From assembly GCA_902568875.1 (NCBI GenBank), contig CACFSG010000009.1:1-32061 (forward strand): a DNA stretch of 32,061 bases, written 5' to 3'. The number at the start of each line of letters is the position of its first letter. Within the stretch, counting starts at the first letter, position 1. Below the pieces are notes generated by a model. It saw nothing but the letters and a program-made list of their open reading frames with translations, ran no database searches and was not told the origin of the DNA. Shown here in pieces: positions 12,271 through 14,002 of the stretch. Source of the DNA: an uncultured Pelagibacteraceae bacterium (GTDB taxonomy: Bacteria > Pseudomonadota > Alphaproteobacteria > Pelagibacterales > Pelagibacteraceae). Both the position numbers and the translations under genes were made by a program.

Positions 12271-13503
12271 ATGGCATCAAGCAGAGATGATTTTATAATA
12301 GCAATTCGTTCTGCCTTTTTAAAAAAAAGCACACAGCAAAAGTTTTCATTATTAACATTAGTATTTATCTCTATTTTTATAATTGTATTATCTAGTTTAG
12401 ATTTTAAAGCTGTAAGATATTTAAAAACAGCGATTAATGAAGTAGTATATAGATCATCATTTATTGTATCAATTCCTGAAAATTTTATAAAAAATAGTTT
12501 TATAGAAATAAGTGAATATACGACTTTTTTTAATAATTATAAAAAAAACCAAGAGGAACTAAATAAACTTAAATCGAATTATGTTTCAAATGAAATTATT
12601 CAATATGAAAATAATGAATTGAAAGAATTGATTAATGATTATGTATATAGTTCAAATAAAATATTAGCAAAAATTATTGTAGATCATAATAGTCCATTTT
12701 TAAAAAGTATAATTATAAATAAAGGCAGTAAAGATGGCATTAAAATAGGAACCAATGTATATGACCAATCTTATTTGGTAGGAAGAGTAATTGAAGTTAA
12801 TTATAAAACATCAAGAGTATTATTATTATCCGATTTAAATTCTAATGTTCCAGTTACAATTGCTCCTCAAAATATTCAAGCAATTATCACAGGTACAGGG
12901 AATAATTATGGACAAATTAAATATATCAAAGATGGTTTTTTAGATAAATTTTCAGGACAAAGTATAATTTATACTTCAGGAACTGGTGCACTTTTTAAAA
13001 GTGGTATTCCTATAGGAAAATTGACCAGTATTGATGATAATTCTACTAATAAACTTAACGTAGATTTTTTTAGTGATTTTTCTCAACTTAAATATGTTTT
13101 TGCAGAAATAACAATTAAAACTGAAATAAAAAAAACAGAATTAGATAATACTGAAAATGATGTTGAAAATAATAAGTTAATAGATGCAAAATTAGAAATT
13201 CTCGAGAATGAGAAAAACATTATTGAGCAAACTAATATTAAATTTCAAGAAGAAAACGAAATTTTAAAAAATAAAAATAATATTTTAAGCAATAAAATTT
13301 TAAGCTTGAATAATGAAATTTCTACTCAAAAAAAAATTATCAACCAATTTAATGTTGATAAAGAAGAGTTAAAATTTTTAAGACTTAATTTGCAATATGG
13401 ACATAAGTGCCGAAGATCCTTTTTTAATAATAAGGGTTTTATGATAGGGAGCAATGAATATAAAAACTGTGTATTAAACAAAGGAAGAATAAATAATGGC
13501 TAG
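12271..13503 (+). CDS. mreC: Rod-shape determining protein MreC with an extra C-terminal tail
   Basis: MreC is a bitopic membrane protein whose periplasmic beta domains link MreB/MreD with PBP2. Here the N-terminal cytoplasmic part is followed by one membrane helix (about residues 26-45) and a coiled coil (about 80-120). The MreC beta domain follows, with INKGSKDGIKIG, YLVGRVIEV, LLLSDLNSNVPV and FFSDFSQLKYVFAEI, ending near residue 285. The 410-residue product then carries roughly 125 further residues: a Lys/Asn/Glu-rich coiled coil (about 300-370) and a tail with C380, the patch GFMIGS and C400 (EYKNCVL). MreC proteins are usually nearer 270-370 residues. The tail is well conserved in style (paired Cys, Gly-Phe, Gly-Ser) and not obviously read-through. 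The gene overlaps mreD by eight bases. Confidence 0.92.
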   Translation: MASSRDDFIIAIRSAFLKKSTQQKFSLLTLVFISIFIIVLSSLDFKAVRYLKTAINEVVYRSSFIVSIPENFIKNSFIEISEYTTFFNNYKKNQEELNKLKSNYVSNEIIQYENNELKELINDYVYSSNKILAKIIVDHNSPFLKSIIINKGSKDGIKIGTNVYDQSYLVGRVIEVNYKTSRVLLLSDLNSNVPVTIAPQNIQAIITGTGNNYGQIKYIKDGFLDKFSGQSIIYTSGTGALFKSGIPIGKLTSIDDNSTNKLNVDFFSDFSQLKYVFAEITIKTEIKKTELDNTENDVENNKLIDAKLEILENEKNIIEQTNIKFQEENEILKNKNNILSNKILSLNNEISTQKKIINQFNVDKEELKFLRLNLQYGHKCRRSFFNNKGFMIGSNEYKNCVLNKGRINNG

Positions 13504-14002
13504 TTTAAGTACAAAAAGTTCTTTTTCTAAAATTTACTATTTGTTACCGATAATAGTTTTATTTATTTCAGTACTTAATGAATTTGATTTTAATTATCTA
13601 AACCTTAAGTATTTTTCTTTTAATTTTCCTTTTATTCTAATTTTTTTCTTTAGTTTAAAAGAATTTAAATATTTTGATTATTTATTAGTTTTTATTGCTG
13701 GACTAATTAATGATACTGTCGTTGGCTTACCTTTAGGAATTAGCAGTTTATCCTATATATTAATTTGTATTGCCACATCTTATTTAAGAAATATTACTAT
13801 TAGACCTCATCCAATAAAAGATTGGTTCTTTTTTTTATTTATTATCAGTTTAATTAATTCAATAAATTATTCTATTTTATCTTTATTTTTTTCTTATAAT
13901 TTAATTTTAGAAAATTATTTAATAAATAATTTTTTTACGTTTTTATTTTATATAATTTTTGTAAATATCTTTAAATTTTATTTGAAAGGCATAAATGATT
14001 AA
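13496..14002 (+). CDS. mreD: Rod-shape determining protein MreD
   Basis: This is a small inner-membrane subunit of the elongation (Rod) complex. The 168-residue product is very hydrophobic, with about five membrane helices, and contains the MreD-typical stretch FIAGLINDTVVGLPLGISSL near the middle, where the family has the conserved Gly-Leu-x-x-Asp pattern. MreD sequences diverge strongly, so the position between mreC and the PBP2 gene carries much of the weight. It overlaps mreC by eight bases at its start and mrdA by eight at its end, so the four proteins are probably translated as a coupled set. Length is normal. Confidence 0.88.
   Translation: MASLSTKSSFSKIYYLLPIIVLFISVLNEFDFNYLNLKYFSFNFPFILIFFFSLKEFKYFDYLLVFIAGLINDTVVGLPLGISSLSYILICIATSYLRNITIRPHPIKDWFFFLFIISLINSINYSILSLFFSYNLILENYLINNFFTFLFYIIFVNIFKFYLKGIND

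Follow-up and report, generated by a model that had tools for sequence, protein, structure and literature searches.

The window, the whole stretch of 32,061 nucleotides analysed here, carries on its plus strand a mreC gene with a C-terminal extension (12271..13503; 410 codons plus stop). The assignment rests on the open reading frame, on the Pfam MreC family PF04085, matched at 111.5 bits with a cut-off of 28, and on the equivalog model TIGR00219, whose cut-off of 92.75 is exceeded with a score of 107.4; the cut-offs of the PRK13922 models, which are narrower than TIGR00219, were not reached by this protein. Judged from the list of open reading frames, the genes beside mreC resemble MreB on the upstream side and MreD, PBP2 and RodA on the downstream side. 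The next reading frame (13496..14002, plus strand), labelled mreD-like from its place and hydrophobicity, shares eight bases with the end of mreC (13496-13503). Such an overlap, or a gap of a few bases, was seen in nearly all relative loci that were read, with the extension present or absent.

MreC serves the wall-elongation complex as its scaffold, and MreC proteins are known to have one N-terminal membrane helix, with the remainder in the periplasm, a topology presumed here for the window protein. It has a hydrophobic stretch at about residues 26-43, where a low-confidence model places a helix. Its barrel core is delimited by PF04085 to residues 135-277 (12673..13101), and solved MreC chains (6zlv, 6zm0, 7eft, 2j5u, 9dvb) match it only to residue 255-282, so that none covers the extension. 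The short N-terminal part, the barrel and the MreB-like and MreD-like neighbours are as in known MreC (PF04085, TIGR00219 and the chains just named). Unlike these, the window protein continues behind the barrel into a second rod and a two-cysteine tail, whereas the coiled coil of E. coli MreC is N-terminal according to passages of PMC8804602. Literature searches, mostly of open-licence papers, on a C-terminal coiled coil or cysteine tail of MreC, on MreC in Pelagibacter, and on SAR11 shape, MreC structures, the periplasm and the two-cysteine motif returned nothing on point. Passages of PMC8804602 and PMC5626683 do not mention such an MreC part, PMC7793260 contains none of three terms looked for in it, and passages of PMC6509183 contain no periplasm size for Pelagibacter.

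The original prediction, whose span of 13160-13503 corresponds to residue 297 to the stop codon, had described an extra C-terminal part of about 125 residues, formed by a rod and a two-cysteine tail behind a barrel ending near residue 285. Such a part is borne out by the reading frame, the Pfam match and the cysteine count in 77 extended proteins, but with the Pfam barrel ending at residue 277 it comprises 133 residues. It begins with a variable stretch (residues 278-295, 13102..13155), defined from the alignment and falling in a low-confidence part of the model, followed by a rod predicted as one helix (residues 296-380, 13156..13410) from the model and a heptad test, of which residues 306-376 (13186-13398) form the heptad part. 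The conserved end of the rod (residues 363-379, 13357..13407) reads DKEELKFLRLNLQYGHK. The tail proper (residues 380-405, 13408..13485), delimited by conservation, model and motif kinship, contains C380 (codon 13408-13410), GF at residues 389-390 (13435-13440), G393-S394, Y397 and C400 (codon 13468-13470), and the model places a second helix at residues 395-404. All these features are on the plus strand.

Conservation was evaluated in 77 distinct extended MreC proteins, obtained from the best 80 of 436 confirmed loci (all extended) plus the window and minus a duplicate contig; because they were drawn from the best matches, they are not a random sample. The cysteine pair anticipated for the tail, C380 and C400, is the only cysteine content of the window protein, and all 77 proteins have exactly two cysteines, at these same positions. 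Among 18 unextended MreC proteins, with the fragment L029 left out, 17 have no cysteine and one (L024) has a single one near the N-terminus. Nine positions are invariant throughout the 77 (D363, E366, L370, N373, L374, C380, G389, Y397 and C400), more than expected by chance, and five of them belong to the rod end. The distance from D363 to C380 is 17 residues in every protein, H378 is present in 69, and the cysteines are 20 residues apart in 68 proteins, 23 in seven and 19 in two. An exact-ruler reading of the rod was rejected: the barrel end and the first cysteine are separated by 99-107 residues in 75 of the 77 proteins (two were not measured) and by up to 113 in others.

Estimates of dN/dS, restricted to pairs whose silent sites are unsaturated (173 of 2926), were 0.076 for residues 1-131, 0.060 for the barrel, 0.183 for residues 278-362, 0.051 for the rod end (363-379) and 0.106 for the tail (380-405); the rod is therefore the loosest region, and the tail is conserved. 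When all pairs are included, pN amounted to 0.247 for the tail, 0.303 for the rod and 0.127 for the barrel. The tail value lies closer to that of the rod than to that of the barrel because positions in the tail loop vary. An extreme rod is found in one species at locus L012 (genome G030), where KAEKARIKAEE repeats flank a run of N and the terminal LNLKYGSKC...LYKVGTPEYRACVLNKG is retained. This stretch is on the minus strand of that locus, at about 1520-1040, and the run of N within it represents a repeat left unresolved by the assembly.

AlphaFold modelling of the whole protein with 37 sequences was poor overall (mean pLDDT 55.3, pTM 0.25), with blocks from residue 321 to 400 averaging 82-91 and helices at 296-380 and 395-404. 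Residues 326-410 modelled alone with 29 sequences gave a mean pLDDT of 92.8 and helices at positions 2-55 and 70-77. The suspected separate small terminal module thus appears in the prediction as a helix-turn-helix hairpin in which each arm carries one cysteine (positions 55 and 75), as a stapling disulfide would require; this arrangement is itself predicted. Foldseek found no solved structure resembling the hairpin at E 10, the tail profile A1 had no solved relative, and for the motif profile A2 (see below) only the flagellar hook protein FlgE (E 0.48) and a spike-protein entry (1.2) were returned. A coiled coil in the rod, likewise proposed at the outset, received mixed results. A fixed heptad was strong in the column profile of the 77 proteins (reached by 1 of 20000 shuffles) but weak in residues 306-376 of the window sequence alone (314 of 20000), and free-period Fourier tests were not significant (410 and 385 of 1000; 273, 400 and 539 of 2000). 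Across the 77 proteins, residues 306-376 contain no proline and eight glycines. DsbB, the oxidase of the disulfide pathway, was detected in 34 of 41 related genomes, including the extended G003, G007, G012, G014, G019 and G021, whereas the genome that the window comes from, at 67% completeness, gave no DsbB match. Taken together, the cysteine pattern, the hairpin model and DsbB in relatives make a C380-C400 disulfide plausible.

MreC was matched in 49 of 61 related genomes, and in ten of these, the window's included, the match extends to residue 406 or beyond; an eleventh extended relative is G030 (L012), whose tail was located after the run of N. The mreC of G015 is cut at a contig end after 77 residues, too early to show whether an extension is present. 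Across the order Pelagibacterales, 256 of 297 genomes gave an MreC match; a hand count of rows assigns 171 of them to the window's genus, 43 to the family's other genera and 42 to a different family. At least 59 of the 171 reach residue 407 or more, and no extension was seen outside the genus, as judged from match scores and from the rows for the 61 relatives; one more genome, G598, is cut at a contig end. Tail profile A1 matched strongly in 11 of the 61 relatives, every time in MreC, and, among 289 class genomes, in two that belong to the window's genus (L053 was read). Weak A1 matches outside MreC were discarded, the motif being absent from the subset that was read. Routine occurrence elsewhere in the Alphaproteobacteria had been named as the finding that would speak against a distinctive extension. 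MreC was matched in 129 of 142 class genomes, where, among the matches listed, no other open frame exceeds 372 (the window's has 414), and the 30 best-scoring of these 129 proteins from outside the order have neither a cysteine behind the barrel nor the motif. A tail that is not conserved within SAR11 had been the other such finding, and neither was obtained in the proteins read: the tail is conserved wherever it is present, as in the 77 proteins, though both the 61-relative and the 297-genome scan include many Pelagibacter that have MreC without the extension.

A quick MreB+PBP2 tree with 38 tips places the 20 extended ones in two groups, one of 18 (support 94) and one of L010 and L012 (support 53), and at least two changes are needed on it. 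Adding MreC to MreB+PBP2 gave supports of 98 and 85 for the two groups, and a tree of the MreC core divided the extended tips into six groups, mostly with weak support. A single clade of extended MreC was rejected (p-AU 0.022). These results are compatible with a single gain followed by losses, with two gains and with transfer. An origin of the tail from phages or plasmids was also discarded: a scan of viral contigs yielded ten pattern matches and no confirmed relative, tblastn against phages matched Streptococcus phages alone, none better than E 0.4, and phrog_25846 (E 0.0042) was too weak to be used. At E 1, a lipoprotein motif query had no match among plasmids or phages.

The tail had been said to recall a motif of periplasmic proteins or lipoproteins. 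We built profile A2 from five examples of this motif; it matched in nine of 142 class genomes at E 0.01 and in five of the 61 relatives at E 0.05, three of the latter matches being MreC tails, and most of the class matches that were read were lipoproteins. From A2-match sequences we then derived A5, a 13-row profile of C-x3-GF-x2-GT-x2-[FY]-x2-C with no MreC row. At E 0.001 it had matches in 29 of 289 class genomes, including seven that had supplied A5 rows, and at 1e-4 in 15 of 398 phylum genomes, 14 within the class and one outside, two of the 15 having supplied rows. Within the genus, A5 at E 0.1 found matches in 31 of 121 genomes: 22 were MreC tails (E 4.3e-4 to 0.077), six, which scored highest, were other proteins with the full motif (one had supplied a row), and three were chance matches or unread. 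A profile built without MreC thus finds the MreC tails, and its hosts are mostly lipoproteins, which supports the proposed kinship. An hhalign comparison of A1 with A5 gave 96.5% over 18 columns, covering only the second half of the motif.

Forty distinct motif proteins from loci L186-L221, near-twins from sister genomes among them, were inspected with our own lipobox expression: 34 contain a lipobox, five have a signal-like start (doubtful in L209) and one has neither. The count becomes 26 of 30 once the ten suppliers of A5 rows are excluded, and 17 of 487 other reading frames in the same loci match the expression. A chance origin of the motif was dismissed, since the motif expression occurs in none of 527 shuffled reading frames. 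Across these loci of Alphaproteobacteria and Pelagibacter the module, written as C-x3-G[FYL]-x2-x[TS]-x2-[FY]-x2-C, recurs in small lipoproteins, often twice per protein. Five motif proteins compared with Pfam, and five compared with NCBIfam (four of them shared), gave nothing over cut-off; among five further hosts, Sel1 repeats are present in one and a glycine zipper in another, in each case away from the motif, so that no curated family lies over the motif itself in the ten hosts scanned. The two-cysteine module is thus real, extracytoplasmic and placed on varied hosts, and it matched no model in the libraries tried.

MreC tails share GF-x2-G[TS]-x2-[FY]-x2-C with the lipoprotein module at the same spacing, and in the small alphaproteobacterial lipoproteins, as in the MreC tail, the equally spaced GF-x2-G[TS]-x2-Y-x2-C is extracytoplasmic. 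The first cysteine precedes GF by eight residues in the window protein and by 7 to 11 in other tails, against three in the lipoproteins, and we therefore liken the MreC tail to the module and do not call it a strict member. MreC also differs from 34 of the 40 other hosts in lacking a lipobox (it has no cysteine before residue 380) and from the lipoprotein hosts in mounting the module on the long rod of an inner-membrane scaffold. In plan the tip resembles CHCH-type twin-cysteine hairpins, two short helices held by cysteine pairs; the MreC tail has a single pair with another spacing, and no homology is claimed. Motif host L199 scored 17.9 against PF05254 (UPF0203), below the cut-off of 27.

Anatomy, conservation, predicted fold and motif kinship of the extension are the observations to be explained. 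We favour a periplasmic rod whose disulfide-stapled hairpin binds an envelope partner, a reading to which we give an even chance, with the disulfide, the dimer and the binding all inferred. The rod would start behind the MreC barrel, extend over up to 85 residues, probably as a coiled coil in an MreC dimer, and continue without a break as the hairpin's first arm. The turn would fall at GF-x2-G[TS], and the short second helix would fold back so that a C380-C400 disulfide could staple the tip. The rod would act as a spacer of nearly free sequence, and function would reside in the stapled tip, through which MreC would touch another component of the envelope; small lipoproteins may use their like hairpin in this way too. 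Binding is suggested because the tip is conserved while the rod is free, and because like motifs serve other envelope proteins. Several results weigh against a stapled contact tip: the larger distance of the first cysteine from GF than in lipoproteins, the half-motif hhalign match, the missing DsbB in the window's own genome, a tail pN above that of the barrel, the null Fourier and Foldseek results, and the many Pelagibacter living without the extension.

A plain structural cap is a serious rival, though less likely than the favoured reading: the disulfide would close the coiled-coil end, stabilising the MreC dimer or guarding the C-terminus, with no partner. The tip directly terminates the predicted coiled coil, is kept in L012 despite a rod of quite different sequence, and tolerates a variable loop length, as seen in the three cysteine spacings, all of which a cap would explain; but similar motifs occur in small lipoproteins without an evident long rod, and the invariance of Y397, G389 and the rod end seems to exceed the needs of a clamp. 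That an isolated cysteine pair in a protein otherwise free of cysteine might serve as a redox switch or metal site, reporting the state of the periplasm to MreC, appears improbable, as the tail has no invariant histidine or acidic residue near the pair (H378 is not universal) and the sharing of the pair by many lipoproteins would rather favour a plain structural disulfide. Neutral C-terminal drift or read-through, a functionless extension inherited by one clade, would suit the patchy distribution, with its two or more changes on the MreB+PBP2 tree and many genus members lacking the extension; given the dN/dS of tail and rod end and the nine invariant positions, this already disfavoured reading is very improbable.

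If the favoured contact tip exists, the wall-building machine of one Pelagibacter branch may gain an extra contact point through its conserved two-cysteine end, and a bound partner would offer a handle on how wall growth is tied to the remaining envelope in these very abundant marine cells. A wider proposal, speculative and rather unlikely in its full form, is that the disulfide-hairpin module of alphaproteobacterial envelope lipoproteins is a general docking piece which, set on the MreC rod in this branch, would let the wall-elongation machine reach a fixed partner, either in the wall or in the outer membrane, and so couple inner and outer envelope growth in very small cells. The finding also draws attention to a short module found repeatedly in envelope lipoproteins and unmatched in the family libraries tried. 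Its hosts are diverse: a Sel1-repeat protein and glycine-zipper lipoproteins terminate in the motif (L199; L205/L206), and in another genus of the family (L193, genome G158) a signal-like protein of 236 residues carries it C-terminally, as CEDLGFKPKTEKFGECVLRLLEAAN, after a Lys/Ser-rich linker.
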